Shown one piece after another: positions 803 to 22,278 of a stretch of DNA of 22,278 nt. Below the pieces are notes generated by a model. That model searched no databases, had not been told where the DNA came from, and saw nothing but the letters and a program-made list of their open reading frames with translations. The position numbers and the translations under genes are program-made. This DNA is from a virus, in the IMG/VR virus record IMGVR_UViG_3300045933_000037, positions 1-22,278 of that record. One strand, written 5' to 3'. Numbering within the stretch: the stretch's first letter is position 1; each line of letters starts with the position of its first letter.

Positions 803-1131
803 CGTGCCACCAACCATCTATTGTACGCGCTCGTCCCGACCTTCGGATACCCGCCCAAGCGTTCAGCCTGGCGCCGATTGGAGCGATTGGAGCGCATCTT
901 GATCACGGCCGGCGTCGTCCCATCCATCTTCGCCCGAGCCTCATACGAGCTCAAGCCCGACTCGCGCAGCTTCCAGTATCTGCGATTGTAATTGTATCGG
1001 TTGACGTGGCGGAACTCCTCGGCACGCATCCCCGACTTGTACGCCATTGCGCCATTCCAGTCCGTCTCGAGGATCAGGCGGGCGAACCAGTAGAGCATGA
1101 GCTTGTGGACGTTCTTGTAGAGGGCTCTCAT
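799..1131 (-). CDS. Hypothetical basic phage protein (110 aa)
   Basis: No family recognised. The ATG at 1131 overlaps the stop of the metallophosphoesterase gene in an ATGA arrangement, so translation is probably coupled. The protein is basic and rich in Arg, Tyr and Asn (for example RHVNRYNYNRRYWKLRESG). The segment LSSYEARAKMDGTTPAVIKMRSNR could form a helix-turn-helix of the sort that recognises DNA, but this is a weak resemblance. There is no signal peptide or membrane segment. Confidence 0.7.
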   Translation of the reverse strand: MRALYKNVHKLMLYWFARLILETDWNGAMAYKSGMRAEEFRHVNRYNYNRRYWKLRESGLSSYEARAKMDGTTPAVIKMRSNRSNRRQAERLGGYPKVGTSAYNRWLVAR

Positions 1132-2705
1132 ACCGAGCAGTGAAAGTCTACGCGGAATCGGCCGCGTCTTTCAACGACTGACACGTTGATGACCACAACG
1201 CCAAGATCTGCCGGAACCATTCCTCCGCGTTCTGCGTATCCAGCCTCAACCCCGGATAGGTACGCTCTCTGGAAAGATCCAGAGCCAACAACGTATCGTT
1301 TAATTGAACCCTGAGAGTAATCAAGTCCGCTCCTTGGATATGCGAGTTTGGCGTTGTCGTGGCCGCTTATGACGATATGGGCCGTTGGGGCAATCTCGGC
1401 AAACTTCATACGCTTCTGTACACGACCACCAGGCGTTTGCGCGCCTCCAGAGCCGTGATACGCCAGCACGTCTAAGTATTGAGAGTGCGGTAATTGTAAA
1501 CGCACGAGAGCTACTCCATCTCCCGCAAAATCTGCCCTTAACTGTTGTGCCACCCATTGATCCGTCGTCTTCCCTATCCACGCGCCACTCACCTTCTGAA
1601 CGCCAAACCTATAGACGTGATGACCCGTGAGCATAAAAAGCGTGCGGCGGCGCAATTGCGGAACATACTCCACAAACTCCTTGATATTGTCCCATACGCG
1701 CTGCTCAATCGTCTGCCGCGTGGTCTCGTAGAGCTCGGCGGCCGAATAGCGCATCCGATTGCTCGGAGACATAAAGTCGAGGTAATCCCCCAGGCCACAG
1801 AGGCGCACCACCGAGCCGCGCTTCTCCTCGTCAACAATCCACTCCATGAGGTCCCGAAGTCGGTTGCGATCGCATTCATCAGTGTTATGCATCGCGTAGC
1901 CTTCGGCGAAGTATGTCCGTGTCGTGGTGCCCATAACCGCGACTGGTTCATCGCCGACGTCATGGACCGATACAACGCGGACATAAGTTGAGCCACGTCG
2001 AGTGCGTACTTCTTCAAGCGGCAGTTTAGCCATGAGTCGGCCGGGTCGGATCTGGCCGAGAAATCGGAAGATCTCTCCGGTGCCGCCAAGCACCCGGAGT
2101 ATCCATACTCGCGACTTGTCGGCCTGCTTGTACCGGCCATGCCTAAAGCCCTTCTCTTCTAGAAGCCGAGCCGCGAATTCATATGTGGGGCCTTCATTCT
2201 GTCCGGCCTGCATTGTAAGAATCCGCTTGCTGCGCTCAAGAACGAGACACCCCTCGCCATCAAAGAATCCAGCCAACCACCCCGCTTCCCATGATTGATC
2301 GTCACGCCACGGCGTAAACGAGCGAACCACGCATTGACCGGGCAGCAACTGAGATGAGGTCCGCCACTGGAGACCCTTATATCTCGTGAGCCACGGGTGA
2401 TTATGCGTCGTGACGATCTTTTCGCCGGTTTCAAGCTCCACGGCGAGACATGGCCGCGTGTCGATTTTGTGCGATACAACGGCCGATGGGCGAAGATGCC
2501 TCGCGCCGTTCTTGCCCGGAGATGGCTTCTCATCGAACCCAATAAGTTCATCGCCAGTCTTGAGGTCGCCGGCTCGTCGCCATCGAAGATCGCGACATAG
2601 GATCTTGTGATCCACATGCACGCAGTCAAAGTGGATATCACCTATAGGAACGAGCTTGAATTGCTGCCCTGGGCGTATGGGTATGTGGTACGCCTTGCGG
2701 AACAT
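1128..2705 (-). CDS. Phage metallophosphoesterase interrupted by an intein
   Basis: A calcineurin-like phosphoesterase of about 278 residues after splicing, with a 247-residue intein inside it (525 aa total). Metal-binding motifs are GDIH at residues 22-25, GDYLD at 306-310, GHH at 361-363 (the usual GNH position) and GHDN at 448-451. The family hydrolyses phosphomono- or diesters, including nucleic acids; the phage substrate is unknown. The intein begins at Cys28, directly after GDIHFD, and ends at His273-Asn274, with Thr275 as the first residue of the C-extein. ATG at 2705 directly follows the TAG of the DUF1599-like gene. Without splicing the first metal site would be split from the rest of the enzyme. 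Confidence 0.92.
   Translation of the reverse strand: MFRKAYHIPIRPGQQFKLVPIGDIHFDCVHVDHKILCRDLRWRRAGDLKTGDELIGFDEKPSPGKNGARHLRPSAVVSHKIDTRPCLAVELETGEKIVTTHNHPWLTRYKGLQWRTSSQLLPGQCVVRSFTPWRDDQSWEAGWLAGFFDGEGCLVLERSKRILTMQAGQNEGPTYEFAARLLEEKGFRHGRYKQADKSRVWILRVLGGTGEIFRFLGQIRPGRLMAKLPLEEVRTRRGSTYVRVVSVHDVGDEPVAVMGTTTRTYFAEGYAMHNTDECDRNRLRDLMEWIVDEEKRGSVVRLCGLGDYLDFMSPSNRMRYSAAELYETTRQTIEQRVWDNIKEFVEYVPQLRRRTLFMLTGHHVYRFGVQKVSGAWIGKTTDQWVAQQLRADFAGDGVALVRLQLPHSQYLDVLAYHGSGGAQTPGGRVQKRMKFAEIAPTAHIVISGHDNAKLAYPRSGLDYSQGSIKRYVVGSGSFQRAYLSGVEAGYAERGGMVPADLGVVVINVSVVERRGRFRVDFHCSV
1884..2624 (-). mobile_element. Intein with LAGLIDADG homing-endonuclease domain
   Basis: Residues 28-274 of the metallophosphoesterase ORF. 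The N-terminal splicing block starts with Cys28 and contains AGDLKTGDELIGF. Block B is around IVTTHNHPWL (98-106), with the expected Thr and His. The C-terminal end is AEGYAMHN followed by Thr. The central domain has one clear LAGLIDADG motif (WLAGFFDGEG, 143-152) and about 80 residues typical of single-motif LAGLIDADG nucleases, which usually act as dimers. All expected splice residues are present, so protein splicing looks intact, and the conserved nuclease motif suggests homing could still be active. Confidence 0.9.
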
Positions 2706-4431: not shown

Positions 4432-4556
4432 GGGTCCGCCTTCAGCCGATTGCACCCCGGCCGCTCATCCGCCCCGAACACGAGCATGATGCCGATGAAG
4501 AACCCCAAGAGGAACCCGGCTGCCATTGAGAGCCCGACCCAGAACAGCGTCATCAT
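4428..4556 (-). CDS. One-helix membrane micro-protein (42 aa)
   Basis: After MMTLFWVG comes a hydrophobic helix, SMAAGFLLGFFIGIMLVFGA, then a short polar tail (DERPGCNRLKADP). ATG at 4556 overlaps the stop of the NeuA-like gene as ATGA; a second ATG follows at once. It lies directly downstream of the nonulosonic acid genes, so a membrane role linked to surface glycan is possible, but nothing more can be read from the sequence. Confidence 0.6.
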   Translation of the reverse strand: MMTLFWVGLSMAAGFLLGFFIGIMLVFGADERPGCNRLKADP

Positions 4557-5251
4557 GGCTTTCCCCTCATGATCCTCTCCACCTCGGCGATGTCCTCGAG
4601 CGTGTCGATGTTGACGAGCGGGTCGTCCTGGATGAGCACCGCCCCGGCATTCTTGCCCATGATGGTCTTCTGATCCAGCAGGCACTCCCGCGTGAAGGCG
4701 TAGGCGGCCCCGTTGCGGTAGTGGACTCCGTATTCATCAAGTTGCTGTCGGGCGATGATGCGCGGCCCCTCGATACGGTCCCAATACCCCAACTGCCCAG
4801 TAGTCGTGACCCATAACTGCTTGAGCGGATGATATTTCATTGGCGTGCGCGATACCGTCCACACCGAGTCATATCCGCCCGCGATGAGCCGATGGACCGC
4901 CCACGTCACATGCCTGGGCTTCCGTAGGGGGCACGTGGGCTGCAGCATGACCACCACGTCATAGGCCCCCTCGTCCACCGAGTGCAGCACGTGGGTCAAG
5001 ACCTGGAGGTCGCTGATGAAATCGCCCCCGAGGTCGTCTGGGCGGCGAAATGGGACGCGCAGGCCCTCCTGGTGGGCTATCTTCATGATCTCCGGGTGAT
5101 CCGTCGAGCAGATCGCCATATCGACCCACGGGAGGGCTTTCACCACATCGGCGGTATAGGCGATGAGCGGGCGCCCACAGACTGGGTAGATATTCTTCAG
5201 CGGGATGCCCTTGCTCCCGCCTCGGGCCGGGACGACGACGAGGACCCTCAT
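4553..5251 (-). CDS. neuA: Acylneuraminate cytidylyltransferase (CMP-nonulosonic acid synthetase)
   Basis: This 232-aa protein is the length expected for a single-domain NeuA-family enzyme, which couples a nonulosonic acid (sialic, legionaminic or similar) to CMP from CTP in the cytoplasm. Visible motifs are PARGGSKGIPLKN at residues 8-20 (nucleotide binding), STDHPEI near 49-55, LQPTCPLR at 103-110, and the C-terminal acidic IDTLEDIAEVE. ATG at 5251 is chosen because it overlaps the upstream stop as ATGA; a start 12 bases earlier is possible. The NeuB-like synthase lies one small gene upstream, so the pair can make and activate the sugar. KdsB or pseudaminate relatives are the main alternatives; the exact sugar cannot be read. 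Confidence 0.9.
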   Translation of the reverse strand: MRVLVVVPARGGSKGIPLKNIYPVCGRPLIAYTADVVKALPWVDMAICSTDHPEIMKIAHQEGLRVPFRRPDDLGGDFISDLQVLTHVLHSVDEGAYDVVVMLQPTCPLRKPRHVTWAVHRLIAGGYDSVWTVSRTPMKYHPLKQLWVTTTGQLGYWDRIEGPRIIARQQLDEYGVHYRNGAAYAFTRECLLDQKTIMGKNAGAVLIQDDPLVNIDTLEDIAEVERIMRGKP

Positions 5252-5436
5252 GCCTGCCAGCATGTATCACCCACCGGGGTCCTTCCGATCAGTTGAACCT
5301 GCACGGGGTCCATAGACAAGACCTCAGCGATGTACTCCGGCGACTTTCCCTCATTAAGCCACTCATTAATCAGTAAATGGCGTATGTGGAGAAAGTCTCC
5401 CCAATCCGCCCTGCAATCACAGACCGCCCACCCCAT
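5248..5436 (-). CDS. Small putative helix-turn-helix protein (62 aa)
   Basis: ATG at 5436 shares one base with the stop of the NeuB-like gene (TGATG), and its own stop overlaps the NeuA start. The segment LINEWLNEGKSPEYIAEVL, continuing to SMDPVQVQLI, has the spacing of a helix-turn-helix, with a glycine-containing turn. It could bind DNA or simply be a small helical accessory protein. Two cysteines near the N-terminus (CDC) and one near the C-terminus are present. It is tucked between two sugar-pathway genes. Confidence 0.6.
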   Translation of the reverse strand: MGWAVCDCRADWGDFLHIRHLLINEWLNEGKSPEYIAEVLSMDPVQVQLIGRTPVGDTCWQA

Positions 5437-6793
5437 CAGTGCCCTCCCCACCCCTCCACGATAGTCTTCCGCTCCTCCCGCTTCAGTGCCGTGATGAGCG
5501 GATCGGAGTAAAAGGAGTCGTCGTTGTGGTGCGTCGTGGAGATCTCCTCGATGATGGCGCCCATGATGTGAGTGGCCGTAAATGAGTGCCATACGCCCGG
5601 CTTGATAACTACGGTATCCCCCGGCCACAGCGTCTGCATGCCACCATCTAGGGTGACATTTAGAGCCCCAGAGAGGATCTGGAATGTCTCCTCCTTCTTG
5701 TTGTGGTAGTGCCGCGGGTGCCCCTGCCCTGGCGTCAACACGATCAACTTCTTGCAGTACTCCCGGTTGACCACGTTGATGATGGTGGCGCCCACGTAGG
5801 GGAAGCGCACGAGCCCGTGATGGTGTGAGAGCTCCAACTTGAAGTCGGGCGGGGGCGCGATCTTCGCCTCGGCCAGCATCGTCCGGACGGTATAGACGGC
5901 TTGGGAGATGATCTCCTGGACGGGATCGCGTGGCGTCGGAGGCTGAATCCGCCTCAACTCCTGGAGCGCGGCTTGCTCCTCGGGTGGGGACTCGGGCCGC
6001 TCGGTGGCGCCGCAGAGGGTCCGGGCGCTCTGATAATCCCTGATCCACTGCTCGACATAACCCGGCCCCGCAGAGTAGGCGTTCAGGGATATGGGGTTGG
6101 GGTCGACGGACATCGTTGTGTCTATGCCAACATGGCGCTCAAAGATCCGGGCGCCTTGCGCGTAAGCGATGCCAATGGGCGAATGCTGCCACCTCCCCTC
6201 ATGCGACGAGAACCCGATCACCTTGTCCGGGTAGCGTCGGCACAATGCACCAATCTGGTGCAACTGGAAGTGCTCGGCGGGCGTCGGATAGATGGAGACG
6301 CAGTGCATGATGGCATGGTGGACGTTGGCCCAGTCGAGGAAACGCGACACGTCGTCGATCTCCCGCATGGTGAGGCCACCCGTGGAGAAGATGACGGGCT
6401 TTCCGGCCTTCGCCACCTTCTCAATCAGCGGCCAGTCCTTGTTGGACGGCGAGCCGACCTTGATGACCTCAATGCCCATCTCCACAATCTTGTCCACCGA
6501 CGCCTCATCGAACGGCGTGCACATCGTGATAAGGTCATTCTTCCGGATCTCCTCGACGAGCACGGCGAACTCATCCCACGAGAGCCGCGTCTCGAGGAAT
6601 CGCTTGATGTGCTTACTCGGCGGCACGGAGTGAACGAAGGTGTCGAGGTCCCGGAACTGCAACTTGACCGCCGCCCGGATGCCCTTCTCTTTGGCGATCC
6701 GGGCCATCTCCTGAATGATCCTCTTCCCGTGCTCCACGCTGCCCTGGTGGTTGTTCGCCATCTCGAAGATGAACAGGTCGCGGAAGTCGAAGG

Positions 6794-6797
<4 letters not shown>
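5436..6797 (-). CDS. neuB: NeuB-type nonulosonic acid synthase fused to a C-terminal cupin
   Basis: 453 aa. Residues 1-265 form a NeuB/SpsE-type TIM barrel: FEMANNHQG at 11-19, AVKLQF at 43-48, VIKVGSPSNKDWPLI at 111-125, HCVSIYPTP at 165-173, GFSSHEGR at 195-202 and FERHVGID at 219-226. The family condenses phosphoenolpyruvate with an N-acyl-mannosamine-type sugar. The usual C-terminal SAF/antifreeze-like domain is absent. After a Pro/Glu-rich linker, residues 345-430 form a cupin with metal ligands in HYHNKKEETF (363-372) and His404. ATG at 6797 has AGGA upstream and overlaps the previous stop as ATGA. The frame continues upstream only through the shadow of the Ala-repeat gene. The substrate is unknown. 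Confidence 0.9.
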
Positions 6798-7511
<714 letters not shown>

Positions 7512-7519
<8 letters not shown>

Positions 7520-10707: not shown

Positions 10708-11201
10708 TCCTAGACGAATTCGCCGCCACGCCCGAGCGCCCAAGCGTGGCGATGTTAATTGCCCGCATCGCCGCCCTCGAAGCCGAACTCGCGGAGGCGA
10801 AGGACGAGATAATCAAACTCCGCGCAGATATTATCTGGATCGCAAAGGACCGCGACGACAACAGGCAGTGGGCCGAAGATCGGGCGACCGTTGCTGTCGA
10901 AATGGCGGATCAGCGAGATCAAGCACGGCAGGCCCTCGCGGAGCGGACGCGGGAGCTAGAGGCGTGGAAAACAAATTGTCGGGAGTATGGTGAACAGTTT
11001 GAGCGCGATGAACAGGAGCGCACCGAAGCCTGGGCGGCGATCCGGGCGCTGAGCACACCGCGCACGATTCTAGGTGGGGCCAAAGAATGCGTATGGTGTG
11101 GGTGCCGGTGGTTAGAAGGTGAGGAGCCGCCTCATGGTCGAGCCTGCCGGATTGTCGAGCACGCCCCCGCCATCGCCCGCGCCAGCCAGGGGAAGGGATG
11201 A
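10704..11201 (+). CDS. Coiled-coil protein with C-terminal zinc motif (165 aa)
   Basis: Residues about 15-110 form a long coiled coil (IARIAALEAELAEAKDEIIK onward). The C-terminus has CVWCGCRW, followed about 14 residues later by HGRAC, a plausible small zinc site. ATGA overlaps link it to both the 106-aa gene and terminase. A long coiled coil just before the large terminase would fit a small-terminase or DNA-packaging accessory, but the usual N-terminal helix-turn-helix is not visible. The function is not assigned. Confidence 0.62.
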   Translation: MILDEFAATPERPSVAMLIARIAALEAELAEAKDEIIKLRADIIWIAKDRDDNRQWAEDRATVAVEMADQRDQARQALAERTRELEAWKTNCREYGEQFERDEQERTEAWAAIRALSTPRTILGGAKECVWCGCRWLEGEEPPHGRACRIVEHAPAIARASQGKG

Positions 11202-13012
11202 AATTCCCGCTCGCCAACTTTGAAAAGTTCTGCACGGCCCTCGCCATCCCGGCCAAGGATCACTCGGGCACCTTCCGGATGAAGACGCTGTACTCCACAC
11301 AAAAGTATTTCCTCCGGGAAGTGGCGGCGGGGCTCGAGAACGACGTGCATGACTTCTTGGTGCTGAAGGGGCGCCAGCAAGGTTTGACCACAATCACCGA
11401 CGCCTTGGACCTCTACTGGCCCCAGCGCTATGAAGGCATCCAAGGAATCATGGTGGCCGATGACGACGACAACCGAGAAGTCCGACGCGACATCATCCGA
11501 AGCATGTACTACAGCGTGCAGGATGAGTCCTTTCGGCTACCAGTGCGAGTCGATAACGGCAACATGCTGGCTTGGTCGAACGGATCGCGCCTGCTTTGGT
11601 CGCAAAGCGCCACCAAGTCCAGGGGCACGAAAACCAAGCTCGGTCGAGGCAAGGGAATCTCCTACCTCCACGCCGACGAGTTCGACGCCTGGACCGACCC
11701 CCGGGCGGTGATGGGCCTGCGGGCCTCCCGCTCCGACCGCCACCCGCGACGACTCTACACTTGGGCTTCAACCGCACAGGGCCACGGCGTCCTGTGGGCC
11801 GCATGGAGGGAGCATGAGCACTCCGCTACTACACGGCGTATCTTTATCCCTGCCTGGCGGCACAGTCTCAATTACGTTGAGCACGCCAATCGCGCTGTCT
11901 GGGACATTTACGGCAGCGATCGACTTAGCGATGATGAGCGACTCTGGGTCCGTGCTGTGGCGGAAATCTATGGAGTTGAGTTACCGCCCGAATACCTCGT
12001 CTGGTACCGATGGAAGCTAGCGGAGGACATGCACGGCGACGAGGCCATGATGGCGCAGGAGCACCCGAACCTGCCCGAGGACGCCTTCCAATCCTTCGGC
12101 AACAAGTTCTTCCGGCCGGCGCTCATTCGCCAACTCCGCGCCGGGGCCGCGCAGGCACCCAAGCCGCACGGGTACAAGTACGAATGGGGGAGATGGCTAG
12201 ATGACACGCAAATCGAGAAGTGCGACCCGAGAGAAGACGGCGCCGTCACGGTCTGGGAAGAACCGGACCCGGAAGGGGTCTACATCGTCGCGTGTCATCC
12301 TGCGTATTCCTCGTCGGCTGAAGCGCCAGATGATGTCGTCCAGGTCTGGCGAGCGTATCCAGATTCACTTGTTCAGGTCGCGGAATACGTTGTACCCGGA
12401 GGTGATCTCACTGTGCGATGCGCGTGGGCGTGTTTGCATCTGGCTGGGTCATACCGACAAAATCGCCCGTTCGCAGATGTCTACTTCGTGATGGACGTGG
12501 AGATGACCGGCTTTAGCGTGCTGAACGAGATCATGCGATTCGAGCAGCGCGGGTGGGGCCAGCGGATTCAGGGTAAGCACGACCTCCAGAACATGATTGG
12601 CGCCGTGCGCCATTACTACTTCCGCCGGCCGGATTCTCTCGCCCGAGGCGTGCGCGCCGTCGAGTGGAAGTCGCAGGCCAGTTTCCGCCCCTGGCTGCTC
12701 AACCAGATCCGCGACGTGCTCGAGAACGGGCACGTGGAGATCCGCTCCCCGGAATTGATCGACGAGTTGCAGGCGATGCGGCGCGGCGAGTTGCAGGACG
12801 CGGACGTGATCACGGCGGGCGCGGGCGGGGAGTATTCGGAGTGCCGGGTGCTCGCGGCGGCGATGGCGGTGGAGCACTGGTTCACGAACGTCCAGCCGGA
12901 GATTCAGGGCCGCTTCGCGCCGAAGATGGTGAAACCCGAAGAGACCAATGTGCTCTCGGTGCTCGCGGGAAACTTCATCGGCCGCGTGATGAGGACAGGG
13001 AGAGGGATATGA
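11198..13012 (+). CDS. terL: Terminase large subunit (604 aa)
   Basis: The DNA-packaging motor. The ATPase domain has a Walker-A variant GRQQGLTT (58-65) without the canonical GK, as in many phage terminases; a Walker B strand ending YLHADE (156-161); and a coupling motif TWASTA (188-193). The C-terminal nuclease-like domain follows: YIVACHPAYSSSAEAPDD (362-379), VYFVMDVEMTG (428-438), GGEYSECRVLAAAMA (543-557). Relatives normally have Asp where His367 stands and a D-D pair where Glu547-Cys549 lie, so the nuclease centre looks altered. Length is normal. The start is coupled to the upstream gene by ATGA. Confidence 0.92.
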   Translation: MKFPLANFEKFCTALAIPAKDHSGTFRMKTLYSTQKYFLREVAAGLENDVHDFLVLKGRQQGLTTITDALDLYWPQRYEGIQGIMVADDDDNREVRRDIIRSMYYSVQDESFRLPVRVDNGNMLAWSNGSRLLWSQSATKSRGTKTKLGRGKGISYLHADEFDAWTDPRAVMGLRASRSDRHPRRLYTWASTAQGHGVLWAAWREHEHSATTRRIFIPAWRHSLNYVEHANRAVWDIYGSDRLSDDERLWVRAVAEIYGVELPPEYLVWYRWKLAEDMHGDEAMMAQEHPNLPEDAFQSFGNKFFRPALIRQLRAGAAQAPKPHGYKYEWGRWLDDTQIEKCDPREDGAVTVWEEPDPEGVYIVACHPAYSSSAEAPDDVVQVWRAYPDSLVQVAEYVVPGGDLTVRCAWACLHLAGSYRQNRPFADVYFVMDVEMTGFSVLNEIMRFEQRGWGQRIQGKHDLQNMIGAVRHYYFRRPDSLARGVRAVEWKSQASFRPWLLNQIRDVLENGHVEIRSPELIDELQAMRRGELQDADVITAGAGGEYSECRVLAAAMAVEHWFTNVQPEIQGRFAPKMVKPEETNVLSVLAGNFIGRVMRTGRGI

Positions 13013-13925: not shown

Positions 13926-14251
13926 GAACCCTCGACCAACTCAAGCATCTCGTTCCCAGTGGCCCCGCCCAAATCGTCCACATGGGCCTCGGCGGGCCGT
14001 ACCAACTCCAGACCCCGAAACTGGTGCTCGTCCACCACATCCAACGGCTTGAAGTCGCTGAGTATCTATGCCGCCTTTGGAATATCGCGTCAACATGGCA
14101 TACAATGGGGCCGGATGATTCTGCCGGGGGATCAGGACGACAGGAACTCGATATATCGAAATACGATCCGGGAGTGCCTACAGTCGCAGGACCGGAGGCG
14201 GGCATATTACCGGCGGCTCCGACAACTCGCGCTCCACGGAAGCGACGGTAG
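13922..14251 (+). CDS. Hypothetical protein before portal (109 aa)
   Basis: Begins in repeat B. Residues 1-62 look genuine (IVHMGLGGPYQLQTPKLVLV, then HHIQRLEVAEYLCRLWNIAS). The remainder, from about 14110, lies in a 137-base overlap with the portal gene and has shadow-like composition ending APRKRR. Either the gene truly overlaps, or it is fused to the portal and split by an indel. ATG at 13922 is coupled by ATGA to cassette Y. Confidence 0.5.
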   Translation: MRTLDQLKHLVPSGPAQIVHMGLGGPYQLQTPKLVLVHHIQRLEVAEYLCRLWNIASTWHTMGPDDSAGGSGRQELDISKYDPGVPTVAGPEAGILPAAPTTRAPRKRR

Positions 14252-15947
14252 CCAGGTCGTAGTCCAGAACAAGCTGCGCGAGTGGGCCTCAAACTCTAGC
14301 GCCTACTGCTACGCCCCCGAGTTCGTGAAGTTCGGCGCCACGCTGCCGCCGCGCTACGGCGATCAGTGGACCGAAGAGCTTGGGGTTATCCGCAACGAGA
14401 TCGCGGAGTTATTCTCCCACTCCGGGCTCGACATGACCTTCGGCCTCGCCGTGGACTGGGCGCACATCTATCCGTGCATGTTCGTCAAGGTGATCACGTC
14501 CGGTGGCGAGGTCTGCCCGGAACTCATCGAAGACCCCGCCGACGTGGGGGTGTGGGAAGAGAACCGGCCGTTTGAGAAGCAAGAAGCCCTCGTGCACACC
14601 TTCTCGATGAACCTGCACGCGGTGATTCGGCTCTTCTCGGGGGCAATACCGGACGCCGGCGACCGCGATCGCCTGATCCGACTGGCGCGAGAGCATGCGA
14701 CCCGCGGGCCGTCCGGTGGCGCTCTCGCCCCGGCTATCCCGCGCCTCATCCTGGCCGCGGCCTCCCCCAACATGATCGGCGCCGTCCAGAATATGCCGAT
14801 TCTGAACCTCGCCGAGCCCGAGGTCATGGCCGATGTGGTACCGATGTGCGAGCTCTGGATCAAGGACGACCTCGCCTACCCCGCGTGCGCCCAGTGCGAC
14901 CACGGCGAAGGCGATGAGGTCCACCACGGGGCGACCAAGGATCACGAATTCCAGAAGTCGGGGAAGCATACCTGGGAGTGGCGCAAGGTGCTCGGGATGG
15001 GTCGCTGGGGCGAGGAGATTCTGTGGGGCTCCCTGAATCCCCTGCTGAGGCAGCGCCAGCCGATCCGCCAACTCTGCCTCGAGCCGGTCACCAATTACGC
15101 GTATGGCTTGTCGCCGATGGACCCACTGGTGAACCTGCAACTCTGGAGCGAGGATCTACTCCGGAAGCATGACAACCTGCTCGACCTCCAACTTGACCCT
15201 CCCATCGCCATCATCGGGCTGTCCAACGTGGACAACGAGCGGGCGAAGTTGCTGCGGATGCCAGGCGGGACCTTCACGATGTCCAATATCCCCAACGCCG
15301 ACATCCGCCGTTTCTCCCCGGAGACGCCACCGGATACGGCGGGCATGCACCAACTGATTGACCAGAAGTTTGACCGGCAAGGCGGGCTGCCGCTCGGTGC
15401 CAGTGGGACGCCAGGAGAGGCGAATATGCGCTCGGCCGGTCAGATGACCGCCGGTGCCGCCCTATCCTCACCCCGCACCAATCGGCGGGCGATGCGGGTG
15501 GAGGATTCCCTCGAGGAGATTTCGACCGACACGCTACGCCTGCGGCGGCGGACCAGCAAAGACCCCCTGCGCGTGCCACTGAACGAACCCGATCCGACGA
15601 CCGGGAAGCCCTATCGGTCCTTCCTGCTGTCGCAGGTCCCGGGTGAGGTTAGGGTACGGGTCTCGGCCCACTCAGCCTCCCCACTATTCCGCAACGAGAT
15701 GCGTGAGTTGGCGGTGATCCTGAAGCGTGAGGGCGCGATCGGGCTGGAGAGTTTCATTGAGTTGATCGCCCCGCCGATGGAAGACATCCTGCGCCCGAAG
15801 GCGCGGCAGATCGAGAAATCGGGCGGGGAGATCAAGAAGCAGGCGCTCGCGTCGAGGCAGCAGGAGGCGCAGGCGAAACTGATGCAGGCGCAGGTGAAGG
15901 TCGCTCAGGCCGCGACGCCGCGGGCGAGCGGCAGTCCTACTTCGTAG
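14115..15947 (+). CDS. Portal-like protein (610 aa)
   Basis: Located immediately after the packaging module and of the size expected for a phage portal. An N-terminal helical segment (NTIRECLQSQDRRRAYYRRL) is followed by an alpha/beta core (VDWAHIYPCMFVKVITSGG) and a late region with NVDNERAKLLRMPGGTFTMS and ADIRRFSPETPPDTAGM, then SSPRTNRRAMRVEDSLEEIS, a pattern typical of portal stems and wings. The C-terminus is a charged Gln/Ala helix (QQEAQAKLMQAQVKVAQA). The portal would form the dodecameric ring through which terminase pumps DNA. ATG at 14115 is my choice; the frame is open upstream to 13959 but with shadow composition. The end overlaps the convergent methyltransferase gene by 11 bases. 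Confidence 0.75.
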   Translation: MILPGDQDDRNSIYRNTIRECLQSQDRRRAYYRRLRQLALHGSDGSQVVVQNKLREWASNSSAYCYAPEFVKFGATLPPRYGDQWTEELGVIRNEIAELFSHSGLDMTFGLAVDWAHIYPCMFVKVITSGGEVCPELIEDPADVGVWEENRPFEKQEALVHTFSMNLHAVIRLFSGAIPDAGDRDRLIRLAREHATRGPSGGALAPAIPRLILAAASPNMIGAVQNMPILNLAEPEVMADVVPMCELWIKDDLAYPACAQCDHGEGDEVHHGATKDHEFQKSGKHTWEWRKVLGMGRWGEEILWGSLNPLLRQRQPIRQLCLEPVTNYAYGLSPMDPLVNLQLWSEDLLRKHDNLLDLQLDPPIAIIGLSNVDNERAKLLRMPGGTFTMSNIPNADIRRFSPETPPDTAGMHQLIDQKFDRQGGLPLGASGTPGEANMRSAGQMTAGAALSSPRTNRRAMRVEDSLEEISTDTLRLRRRTSKDPLRVPLNEPDPTTGKPYRSFLLSQVPGEVRVRVSAHSASPLFRNEMRELAVILKREGAIGLESFIELIAPPMEDILRPKARQIEKSGGEIKKQALASRQQEAQAKLMQAQVKVAQAATPRASGSPTS

Positions 15948-16515
15948 CCAGAAACGCCGCCCGATTCCGCCCGAGCCACCAGCCGTGGCAGCTGGACCGC
16001 GTGATGTTCGTGAATCCCGCCATGTGGAGCCACGATTCAATGGCCCGGCGTGAGGGGAGATGGGTCACGTTGAGGCTCAGGTGATAGCGGCGCTTTACCT
16101 CCTCAGACGGCGGGTGCAGAATCTCCACGACGTTAGCCCGCCGCAACCACCACTTCCGGATGGTGGCACTTTCTAGGACAAGTGTGCCACCTGGCACCAG
16201 CCAGTCATAGAAGTGCCGGATCAGCCGGTACTGCTCCTTGACGTGGTAGAGGACGCCAGTACACCAGATGAGGTCGAGGGGCTTCGGGGCCGGGATGGTG
16301 AGCACGTCCAGCGCTACATGCTCGATGACCGTCCCGCCCGAGATGATGTTGACCCGATCGCGCCCTGGTAGGTCCACGAGAGTCAATAGCTTCGGCTTGA
16401 GCGTAAGCAGGCGCCGCGTGTCGAGCCCATCCTTGGGGCCGACCTCCAGTACGCGGGCCACCCTCGCGGACGAGTAGGTGCGGTAGTCTCCGAACAGTCG
16501 CGCCCGGTACTCCAC
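15937..16515 (-). CDS. Class I SAM-dependent methyltransferase (192 aa)
   Basis: The SAM-binding motif I is VLEVGPKDG (22-30), followed by LVDLPGRDRV (motif II region), DLIWCTGVLYHVKEQYRLI (81-99) and LVPGGTLVLES (106-116), as in small-molecule, sugar or tRNA-wobble-type methyltransferases. The substrate is unknown. The start is GTG at 16515, without a clear ribosome binding site. It opposes the portal gene and ends inside it by 11 bases. An inverted repeat separates it from the next leftward gene. Confidence 0.8.
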   Translation of the reverse strand: MEYRARLFGDYRTYSSARVARVLEVGPKDGLDTRRLLTLKPKLLTLVDLPGRDRVNIISGGTVIEHVALDVLTIPAPKPLDLIWCTGVLYHVKEQYRLIRHFYDWLVPGGTLVLESATIRKWWLRRANVVEILHPPSEEVKRRYHLSLNVTHLPSRRAIESWLHMAGFTNITRSSCHGWWLGRNRAAFLATK

Positions 16516-19084: not shown

Positions 19085-19813
19085 ATGAAAACCCGCTGGA
19101 TTGCGATTGCGATTCTCGTAGCCCTGGCCGTCAGCTTCGCGCCGCTGTCCAGCCGGGCGCAGTCGACGATTCCCATGATTTCGCATGGGATCATCAACGC
19201 GACGGTGGCCTCAGTCAACGCGGCCAACACGACCGCCGAAATCCTGCTGTATGAGTTCACGGTCCCGGCCTCGTTCCTGGCGTCGTGGACCACGAGCAAC
19301 CGGGCCTTCGGCTCGGCGCCCATGCATCTACGCCTGAACGGCGGCATCAAGACGCTAGGGACCGTGGGCGGCATCACGGGTAACTCGCTTGCCGTGAGCA
19401 TCGGCGGTTCGACCGCGACGATGATGGTCGTCAACGGCAACGCGCTTCCGCCTGATCTTGGCGCGGGTACGGCGTGCGCCGGCGCGGCGCAAGGGGCGGC
19501 GGCCTGTCAAGCTCCGGTGGCGCTCGACGTGATGTTCTCGCCGATCGCAACCGTGATGTCCCAGAACTGCACGGACCTCCGCGTGTGTAACCCGTCCGTG
19601 TATATGTCGGGCCGGTTCGTCGTGGCCTCGACCAACCAGGGTCAGGCGAACTATCAGTTCACGACCGAGACGACTTACAACGTGGCCTCGCTGTCCGCGC
19701 TCAACCTCAACAGCGCCTCGAGCTACACGATCAAGGTGCTCTGGCGTTGGGGCTCGGCGGCGTCGGGCAACTCGCTGAACATCTATAACGGCGTGCTCAA
19801 GCTCGGGTTCTAA
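19085..19813 (+). CDS. Exported beta-rich protein in the structural module (242 aa)
   Basis: A clear Sec signal peptide opens the protein: KTR, hydrophobic core IAIAILVALAVSFA, and a cleavage site after SSRA (about residue 25). The mature part is Gly/Ser/Thr/Asn-rich with many strands (GTVGGITGNSLAVSIGG; TMMVVNGN; SSYTIKVLWRW, ending GVLKLGF), resembling phage fibre or decoration beta-sandwich proteins. Two cysteine pairs (CAGAAQGAAAC; CTDLRVC) could form disulfides outside the cytoplasm. ATG at 19085 follows AAGGAGACTGGA. Export is odd for a virion protein. Confidence 0.72.
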   Translation: MKTRWIAIAILVALAVSFAPLSSRAQSTIPMISHGIINATVASVNAANTTAEILLYEFTVPASFLASWTTSNRAFGSAPMHLRLNGGIKTLGTVGGITGNSLAVSIGGSTATMMVVNGNALPPDLGAGTACAGAAQGAAACQAPVALDVMFSPIATVMSQNCTDLRVCNPSVYMSGRFVVASTNQGQANYQFTTETTYNVASLSALNLNSASSYTIKVLWRWGSAASGNSLNIYNGVLKLGF

Positions 19814-21033
19814 TGACCGAACTCAAGCGGCTCTGGTGGATCCCGGTGGCGGGGGCGGTTGTTGCGCCCCTCGTCACCTGGTTTCCCATGCTGGCCTATC
19901 GCTTCCCGTGGATCGGCCTGCCGCAGTATCAAGCGGCCCAGGGCATCGACTTCTGGTCATCGCAGACCTTCTTCCTCGCCGCGATGACCACCATAGCGTT
20001 TCTGATCTTTCGACAGGACCGATATCTCGGGCTCGCGGTCGGACTCGCGGGCCTCGGTATCTTCTGGCGCGGGGCGCACCTAGACCCAACGCATTCGATC
20101 ATGTTCGGCCTCGGGGCGCTCCTCGTCGCAGTCATGCGCTACACGCCGATGCGCTATCACATGCGGATCGCGTCAGTGCTCGCGGGCCTCGGCGTGTTTG
20201 AGCTCCTGTACGTCTCTCAGCAACTCTTTCTCGGCTACGACATCCTCTGGGGTCCGCTGATGGGCGGCCAGTTGGTGATGCCGTGCGGGAGCGCCGAGTA
20301 TCAGGCCGCGCTCCTGAAGAATCCCCAACTGACGTGCGGGCCAATCCAGGCACTCGGGACCATCGGGACGGTTGACGCCGCGTCGGCCTACATCGCCATT
20401 CTGGCCCCGCTGATGCCGTGGTGGACGCTGCCCGCGGTGCTCCTCGTGGTCTGGAAGTCGCACGCGGTGTCGGCCACGCTCGCGCTCGCGGCGGGCCTCG
20501 GCGTGAAGTACCGGCATAACAAGTGGGTCGTGATCCCGCTCCTGAGCATCGTGGCGTGGATGGCCTACGCCTCGGCCTTTGCGAAGAGCATCAACCCGCT
20601 AGCGGCGCACCTGACCGGGCGCGGCGCTATCTGGGGCTTTGCGGCGAGCGATTGGGTCCGGACTGATCCCCTGGTCGGCTATGGCCTCGGGGGTTGGGCC
20701 AACAGAATCCCGGCGCTCCAGATCCAGCACCAATTCGCGCCGACGAAGGAGCTCTGGCGCGAGGCCCACAACGAATACCTTCAGTGGATCGTGGAGGCGG
20801 GCGTCATCGGCCTGATCCTTCTTGCCATGTGGCTCTGGACTCATCGCGCGATGTTCGCGCATCCGGTCTGGGGCGGCTCGCTGGCGGCGTTGGGCGTGAA
20901 TGCCCTGACCTTCTTCCCCATGCACGTTGTGCAGATTTCGCTGGTCGGATTGATCCTTGTCGGGTTGGCGACAGCCCAAACCCGTACTGTTGCTGACCTA
21001 ACATCGCCCCACGAATGGGGCCAGGAGAACTAA
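19813..21033 (+). CDS. O-antigen ligase/polymerase-like membrane protein (Wzy_C type)
   Basis: 406 aa with roughly ten hydrophobic segments. The hallmark periplasmic loop is present: LTGRGAIWGFAASDW (267-281), DPLVGYGLGGW (285-295) and REAHNEYLQWIVEAGVIG (316-333), as in WaaL ligases and Wzy polymerases. An upstream cytoplasmic KSHAVSATLALAAG (215-228) matches the conserved pre-loop motif. These enzymes transfer or polymerise O-antigen on undecaprenyl carriers at the outer face of the inner membrane. ATG at 19813 shares a base with the upstream TAA (TAATG). The gene sits between scaffold-like and capsid genes. Ligase and polymerase cannot be told apart. Confidence 0.85.
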   Translation: MTELKRLWWIPVAGAVVAPLVTWFPMLAYRFPWIGLPQYQAAQGIDFWSSQTFFLAAMTTIAFLIFRQDRYLGLAVGLAGLGIFWRGAHLDPTHSIMFGLGALLVAVMRYTPMRYHMRIASVLAGLGVFELLYVSQQLFLGYDILWGPLMGGQLVMPCGSAEYQAALLKNPQLTCGPIQALGTIGTVDAASAYIAILAPLMPWWTLPAVLLVVWKSHAVSATLALAAGLGVKYRHNKWVVIPLLSIVAWMAYASAFAKSINPLAAHLTGRGAIWGFAASDWVRTDPLVGYGLGGWANRIPALQIQHQFAPTKELWREAHNEYLQWIVEAGVIGLILLAMWLWTHRAMFAHPVWGGSLAALGVNALTFFPMHVVQISLVGLILVGLATAQTRTVADLTSPHEWGQEN

Positions 21034-22093: not shown

Positions 22094-22278
22094 GTGTTCG
22101 GAGACCGTTCAACGCGCCTCCTTCTTGTCCTCACGCTGGGGATCGTGCTCGGCTTCGTAGCCGGGTTCGTCCTCTGGCTCACCGTGAGTCCCATCCCGGC
22201 CGACGCACAGGGCGTCGGATTCTTCGGCACCTCTGCGACCGGAAGCCGGACCAATTGCGACGCCATTACCTCGCCCGT
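22094..22278 (+). CDS. Exported or membrane-anchored protein, 3' end outside the window
   Basis: Starts at GTG 22094 with a strong AAAGGAGG ribosome binding site (22081-22088). The first 61 residues contain a basic N-region (GDRSTRLL), a hydrophobic core (LVLTLGIVLGFVAGFVLWL) and a signal-peptidase-like PADAQG near residue 39, followed by GVGFFGTSATGSRTNCDAIT. It is the second Sec-type protein beside the capsid gene. The function is unknown and the frame is still open at the window edge. Confidence 0.7.
   Translation, partial: MFGDRSTRLLLVLTLGIVLGFVAGFVLWLTVSPIPADAQGVGFFGTSATGSRTNCDAITSP

Follow-up and report, generated by a model that had tools for sequence, protein, structure and literature searches.

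Phage genes that alter surface glycans have mostly been described from temperate phages, where they serve in lysogeny, and the acceptor of WaaL is the LPS core. Phage genes for Wzy_C proteins (in D3 and VarioGold) and a phage gene for a NeuB-family protein (in DLP4; PMC6469090, in part) are already in print. The Wzy-beta of D3, together with Iap, changes the O-antigen, and D3 blocks superinfection (PMC4815439, in part), while the Wzy_C gene of VarioGold and the gene next to it are thought by their authors to act in lysogeny (PMC9658991, in part). Among the O-oligosaccharyltransferases, pilO adjoins a pilin gene, pglL lies beside comP in A. baylyi, and 21 of 31 PglL homologues were adjacent to or near pilin genes; a context outside LPS loci was used in that work as an argument (PMC3643930, in part). 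The consulted part of the same paper states that simple sequence comparison cannot separate WaaL from PglL, and that PilO is likewise without the PglL motifs. In open-licence PMC text, a body without subscription papers and preprints, we found no report of a Wzy_C-type enzyme inside a head module, nor of a phage that encodes both an oligosaccharyltransferase and an exported substrate for it.

The window, meaning the whole stretch of DNA analysed here, is 22,278 nt long (IMG/VR record IMGVR_UViG_3300045933_000037, positions 1–22,278), and its features are listed in Table 1. The terminase-like gene and the portal-position ORF, the latter with no family match in Pfam or PHROGs, form an ordinary packaging and head region. 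An earlier, sequence-only reading held that an exported protein and an O-antigen ligase-like enzyme intervene between the scaffold and coat genes, with spacings of one and two bases. Both genes do intervene, but 'scaffold' describes a position only, the gene being given that name by no library (Pfam, PHROGs). The spacing differs slightly from that reading and consists of a one-base overlap followed by a single intervening base: the stop codon of the exported-protein gene shares one base (TAATG) with the ATG that starts the enzyme ORF, and one base separates the enzyme stop from the capsid ATG, which is preceded by AGGAG. In an annotated relative (MW202753) the order is terminase, portal, several small genes and capsid, and the last three genes ahead of the capsid gene are hypothetical. 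Going by gene order, the enzyme would be expressed late and at a high level; a scan for promoters and terminators was near chance (2 found versus 1.0, and 4 versus 2.9).

Table 1. Features of the window
Feature	Position	Strand	Basis
525-aa ORF; flanks resemble metallophosphatase by eye	1128..2705	-	LAGLIDADG match; weak intein-splicing match below cut-off
CMP-sugar cytidylyltransferase, nearest PseF	4553..5263	-	PF02348, 58.1 bits
NeuB-family (nonulosonic acid) synthase with C-terminal cupin	5436..6797	-	PF03102, 133.9 bits; PF07883, 49 bits
Protein with long Ala/Asp/Tyr low-complexity tract, overlapping the NeuB gene start	6794..7519	-	
Terminase-like gene	11198..13012		phrog_2, E 1.7e-6
Portal-position long ORF	13959..15947		Position alone
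Methyltransferase, between portal-position and scaffold-position genes	15937..16515	-	PF13489, 48.6 bits
Scaffold-position gene, 202 aa	18466..19074	+	Gene order in relatives
Exported partner, 242 aa; signal-type N-terminus and beta-sandwich, 4 Cys past residue 30	19085..19813	+	Alignment, model, BFVD
Wzy_C/WaaL-superfamily polytopic membrane glycan transferase (predicted), 406 aa	19813..21033	+	PF04932, WaaL 7tpg, R270/H319
Major capsid protein, 338 aa	21035..22051	+	phrog_9953 major head protein, E 1.5e-25
Start of fibre-like protein, hydrophobic signal-type N-terminus	22094..22278	+	By-eye call; 379 aa complete in L002 12282-13421

The fibre-like gene is the next after the capsid gene. Its stretch in the window had no family match in Pfam or PHROGs. 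The encoded protein has a recurrent Cys pair, and its Cys count was even in all five phages compared, omitting one signal-segment Cys of L006.

The enzyme scored 41.5 bits against PF04932 (Wzy_C; cut-off 31.7). Across records, PF04932 was over its cut-off in 14 of 14 carriers, one of which (G016) passes only with neighbouring matches added, and in 0 of 16 non-carriers, these representing 16 of the 72 non-carrier loci. In a protein scan of seven of the ten family members at E 0.1, PF04932 matched six, and together with one chance family was all that matched; PglL_A (PF15864) and Wzy_C_2 gave no match in these seven. A weak match to TfpM was found in one of the seven (E 0.0072, 15.4 bits against a cut-off of 600). 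The enzyme model was of middling confidence (pLDDT 66). When the top 1000 Foldseek matches were re-examined by VIA-align, WaaL (7tpg) ranked best, with a Z of 12.6 over 285 residues, although helical models can commonly give Z values below about 13; the SEDS enzymes FtsW and RodA came second (Z 8.2–10.4) and all others scored 5.8 or less. Plain Foldseek of the model against the PDB gave no match at E 0.001. The match to the WaaL fold is nevertheless trusted, since it is consistent across sequence, residues and ranking and the enzymes ranked next have the same GT-C type B fold, which is the fold predicted for the phage enzyme from its model.

An arginine and a histidine (R270 and H319 in the window) were invariant in all ten members of the enzyme family, 48–56 residues apart. 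The corresponding pairs are R288/H338 in E. coli WaaL (spacing 50) and R298/H349 in N. meningitidis PglL (spacing 51; PMC3643930, in part), the equivalence being drawn from motif and spacing. For the third WaaL/PglL arginine (R215/R224, 73–74 residues before the second) no conserved counterpart was found at that distance in the ten members. Sequence searches of the PDB with the enzyme family or the exported family found nothing at E 1, PHROGs held no good match to either (best E 0.14 and 0.011), and tblastn with two members of the enzyme family and with the exported protein found nothing in 50,697 phage records. The dN/dS of the enzyme was 0.20–0.25 in four pairs, indicating purifying selection. 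The description of the gene as O-antigen ligase-like is borne out by the PF04932 score and the best fold match, and its product is, as judged from sequence, a member of the O-antigen ligase superfamily. That superfamily also includes polymerases and protein O-oligosaccharyltransferases, and a strict O-antigen ligase would be one candidate role.

A hydrophobic segment opens all 11 aligned copies of the exported protein, and near the likely cleavage site an Ala and a Gln were each present in at least 90% of them. The number of Cys past residue 30 was even in 10 of 10 exported proteins (none in five, two in four and four in one), which weakly fits disulphides outside the cytoplasm. The model, again of middling confidence (pLDDT 71.6), is a beta-sandwich. 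A Foldseek search of BFVD returned many phage proteins at probability 1.00 (best E 9.1e-10, TM to query at most 0.54), mostly unnamed; those named included a pectate-lyase-superfamily protein (E 2.0e-8) and the KP34 capsule depolymerase (E 9.2e-7). On its model, the exported protein appears to resemble phage fibre or tailspike proteins. A lectin function is not claimed, as the PDB matches were to a generic beta-sandwich only (Z up to 7.8; TM about 0.25). Ser/Thr was conserved in 11 of 11 copies at two columns of the alignment, where it may be structural, and dN/dS was 0.31–0.48. Pairing by mirror tree was tried and set aside, the exported–enzyme distance correlation (0.92) being the same as that between the exported and scaffold-position proteins (0.92).

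The search for the same gene order in related contigs, proposed with the sequence-only reading, found exported protein, enzyme and capsid gene in this order in 16 records. These represent ten distinct phages, with L092–L096 counted as one phage and the window, L002 and L003 as another. An identical enzyme protein was found in the same order in IMG/VR 3300045968_000057 and 3300045947_000051. More divergent enzymes were 65% identical to that of the window in the best segment (L006), 39–48% identical (L007–L011, L092–L096 and L097) or 44% identical (L114, on a contig of a Chloroflexi MAG). A chimeric assembly join at this place, which that reading had named as a refuting finding, was looked for and is excluded by the two other records and by the divergent copies, including that on the MAG contig; the chance that the arrangement reflects chimeric assembly or misannotation is negligible.

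In all ten phages the exported gene lies directly before the enzyme gene in the same orientation, with a gap of −8 to +6 nt, and the pair lies upstream of the capsid gene; together with the purifying selection on the enzyme, this marks the arrangement as beyond chance. Among the records searched, the exported family profile matched carriers only, with three copies in G004. This constant adjacency, together with absence where the enzyme is absent, supports the earlier suggestion that the exported protein is the partner of the enzyme. The capsid gene begins within 40 nt of the enzyme in six of the ten phages and about 220–900 nt past it in the other four. The interval holds an opposite-strand ORF in L114, a small ORF in L097, and a small ORF with a second exported copy in L011, while L007 has a gap of similar size to that of L114.

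In four of the ten phages (L007 9866–10021, L008 9897–10021, L097 7367–7498 and L114 9729–9884), the capsid ORF is extended in frame at its N-terminus by about 40–50 largely hydrophobic residues with one or two hydrophobic segments, and an AGGAG-type sequence lies ahead of its ATG. In these four, the usual capsid protein could possibly be made from a downstream GTG start, and a membrane-tethered capsid precursor is one candidate for the extended product, which may also be something else.

The enzyme was not matched in 72 (L012–L083) of the best 80 capsid loci. Eight of these 72 have less than 700 nt ahead of the capsid gene and say little; in all of the remaining 64, a scaffold-position ORF of 150–260 aa ends 12–119 nt before the capsid gene. 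In a capsid tree of 57 different rows, the ten carriers and L012 grouped together (100/100), apart from 46 non-carriers, and carrier state changed twice; L012 is the nearest relative without the pair. This tree has no known root, and the branch of L092 is long. One gain, with loss in L012 or its early branching, would be enough. From the tree and the non-carrier data the pair therefore looks like an old part of the head operon, vertically kept in one group, rather than a recent insertion. The pair might instead be a moron-like passenger unconnected with head assembly and retained for a host-directed function that has nothing to do with its neighbours. Relatives lacking the pair, L012 included, would fit this, as would other insertions beside it, such as the opposite-strand ORF of L114. 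However, the same place has been kept in one group through divergence to about 40% identity, and the two genes overlap or are tightly spaced in all ten phages, so we regard a passenger as very improbable. In one relative without the enzyme (L067; G009 31849–32886), two proteins with signal-type N-termini are encoded before the capsid gene.

The NeuB-cupin and cytidylyltransferase genes of the window (4553–6797, −) are on the opposite strand and distant from the head genes. PF03102 and PF02348 were over their cut-offs, but the NeuB-family protein was below the NeuB_NnaB and PseI equivalog cut-offs and the cytidylyltransferase scored 118.3 bits against PseF, below the cut-off of 205.7. NeuB was found in 4 of 14 carrier records, from three phages (window/G001, G002 and G005), and in none of 16 others; a cytidylyltransferase was found in G001, G002 and G005 among the 18 records examined. 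As three of the six long carrier records (G003, G004 and G006) lack NeuB and several of the remaining carriers are known from fragments, synthesis of a nonulosonic acid by the phage is not a general feature of the system. The region at about 12900–23600 of G005 (43 kb) holds many enzyme types of the nonulosonic acid pathway and a second Wzy_C protein. Besides NeuB and the cytidylyltransferase, this phage encodes a UDP-GlcNAc 2-epimerase, a DegT aminotransferase, an NAD-dependent epimerase/dehydratase, a formyltransferase and an oxidoreductase. Its second Wzy_C protein is a relative of the enzyme in the head operon (hhalign 97.4%, E 9e-12) and scored 30.9 bits as the called protein, just below the Pfam cut-off, and 34.7 bits as the open frame. 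That the methyltransferase gene of the window is tied to the glycan pathway is a guess.

The reading we favour, at a little less than an even chance, is that the enzyme is a glycan transferase acting on the exported fibre-type protein, the two forming an O-oligosaccharyltransferase/acceptor gene pair. Its observed base is the family, predicted fold, conserved residues, adjacency, conservation, signal-type N-terminus and sugar genes, and from there we infer donor, acceptor, timing and purpose. Because of its family (WaaL/PglL/Wzy, GT-C type B), the enzyme would take its glycan from a lipid-linked donor, with the active site on the outer side of the inner membrane. The upstream-encoded protein would be its dedicated partner, exported via the signal peptide, and would receive the glycan in an organisation like that of pilin/PilO or ComP/PglS. 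In the window lineage this glycan may contain a nonulosonic acid made by the phage through the NeuB/cytidylyltransferase pair. Once glycosylated, the protein might have an extracytoplasmic role in late infection, such as receptor masking or the decoration of released particles. The exported protein is the first choice as acceptor because of the fixed order, the joint absence elsewhere, the context outside LPS loci and the precedent of O-oligosaccharyltransferase genes lying beside those of their targets.

The sugar genes that some of these phages carry, the enzyme relative inside the G005 sugar cluster, the purifying selection on the enzyme and the export-type features of the partner also favour a glycosylation pair. 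Against it stand the missing PglL_A and Wzy_C_2 matches in the seven members scanned, where PF04932 matched six and TfpM weakly one, the third arginine without a conserved counterpart, and the closest solved fold being that of WaaL, which acts on LPS core. The exported–enzyme distance correlation is also no higher than that with the scaffold-position protein, NeuB is present in just half of the long carrier records, and no acceptor site can be read from the exported protein alignment. Both models are only middling, with Foldseek alone blank for the enzyme. A fuller version is rather unlikely to be right in all its parts: a PilO/PglS-like transferase in the head operon would glycosylate the phage's own exported fibre-type protein, a part of the adhesion apparatus or a receptor-masking decoy, which would mature extracytoplasmically during head building, with phage-made nonulosonic acid used in some lineages.

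A close rival, somewhat doubtful but to be taken seriously, is that late in infection the enzyme acts as a ligase or polymerase of glycan on host LPS or on some other surface polymer, such that progeny or competitors no longer adsorb, with the exported protein as a helper or receptor mask. WaaL as the nearest solved fold argues for this, as does the location of an enzyme relative in the G005 sugar gene cluster, and there is the precedent of D3 Wzy-beta, which changes the O-antigen in a phage that blocks superinfection (PMC4815439, in part). The pair also evolves faster than the neighbouring head genes, as surface-active proteins often do: among L007, L008 and L114, identity was 73–82% for the exported protein and 84–89% for the enzyme, but 96–99% for the capsid core and 99% for the scaffold-position protein. 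However, the pair lies in a structural operon and not in a lysogeny cassette, and no match to a tyrosine integrase (PF00589 alone was used) was found in any of 18 records. A change made only at the end of the lytic cycle would have little time to act, hhalign shows no relation to D3 Wzy-beta (0.3%), and the fixed pairing with one exported protein is left unexplained.

The enzyme family was found once in the contigs of 84,980 species, in a scan with two peptide patterns that gave 61 stretches, of which one was confirmed. This was on a 38-kb contig of a Chloroflexi MAG, and the contig includes the phage module. The capsid protein was found in 2 of 400 genomes of the same phylum, that MAG and one weak match (E 5.2e-4). 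When 201 genomes including this MAG were searched with the enzyme profile, 15 others matched, distantly and over the C-terminal half at best (best 2e-9). The contig (L114/G013:C59) is thus a carrier-group phage contig binned in a Chloroflexi MAG, which may reflect either the host or misbinning.

Proteins encoded elsewhere in these phages bear on a further possibility, that exported, glycosylated fibre-type proteins meet and attach to particles during lysis, so that part of the virion would mature outside the cytoplasm. Using a home-made heuristic, soluble signal-peptide-like proteins numbered 4, 7, 3, 7, 2, 6 and 5 in the long carriers G001–G006 and G013:C59, one of the two in G005 being probably spurious, against 1 in G009 and none in the other six of seven long non-carriers. 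The count leaves out G008, G021 was covered to 40,000 of 41,734 bases, and two records are fragments, G007 (17 kb, 0) and the carrier G010 (20 kb, 3). A cruder count from longest ORFs, which is unreliable in GC-rich genomes, separated the groups less well, giving 9, 8, 6, 4, 0 (G005), 8 and 4 for carriers and 1, 3, 0, 1, 0, 2, 0, 2 and 0 for nine non-carriers. Host differences could be behind the contrast, because GC differs between carriers (62–68%) and non-carriers (44–56%, except G007 at 69%).

The higher count in long carriers, the likeness of the exported partner to fibre or tailspike proteins and the hydrophobic extension on the capsid ORF of four phages are in keeping with such decoration. 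We consider it improbable, however, as the count is heuristic and confounded by GC and probably by host, with the cruder count less clear, and G009 has exported proteins without the enzyme. We know of no tailed phage that is built in this way.

Overall, the enzyme and its exported partner have a stable place in the structural operon of a group of environmental phages without a detected tyrosine integrase, which suggests that during particle building the carriers add sugars to the host surface or to a secreted protein. Should the acceptor be the exported protein, these phages would encode a system for protein O-glycosylation together with its substrate and, in some lineages, the supply of sugar. 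Should it be the host surface, remodelling of that surface would be timed to virion assembly.

Of the known systems that bear comparison, FlaGrab of a Campylobacter phage is a phage protein that binds a nonulosonic-acid glycan; it recognises a glycan of the host, and the abstract and outline of PMC7099621 note no enzyme partner. Wzy-beta, the O-antigen polymerase that D3 encodes with Iap and an acetylase, is also a phage-encoded membrane enzyme with the Wzy_C motif, to which the enzyme family shows no relation beyond that motif. Its gene, encoded on the opposite strand, is located past the tail genes and a few kb from a putative tail fibre gene that it follows, whereas the window enzyme is in a head operon. 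In VarioGold (VG_p25/VG_p26), a gene for a protein with an N-terminal signal peptide directly precedes the Wzy_C gene, as here, but in an opposite-strand cluster of a temperate phage (PMC9658991, in part). The likeness is one of arrangement in an unrelated setting, and could fit either a glycosylation pair or action on the host surface.

WaaL has the closest solved fold and shares the Arg and His type with the phage enzyme, but the phage gene is outside an LPS locus and the third arginine was not found at the expected distance. PilO, PglS and PglL differ in having a pilin as acceptor, where the phage candidate is a fibre-type beta-sandwich; the phage enzyme sits in a head operon, has no PglL_A or Wzy_C_2 match in the seven members scanned, and its PilO/PglS/PglL-like activity is predicted only. 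As in those systems, where the enzyme gene lies beside that of its acceptor (pilin or ComP), a Wzy_C membrane enzyme with an Arg/His pair at similar spacing adjoins, outside LPS loci and in the same orientation, the gene for an exported protein.
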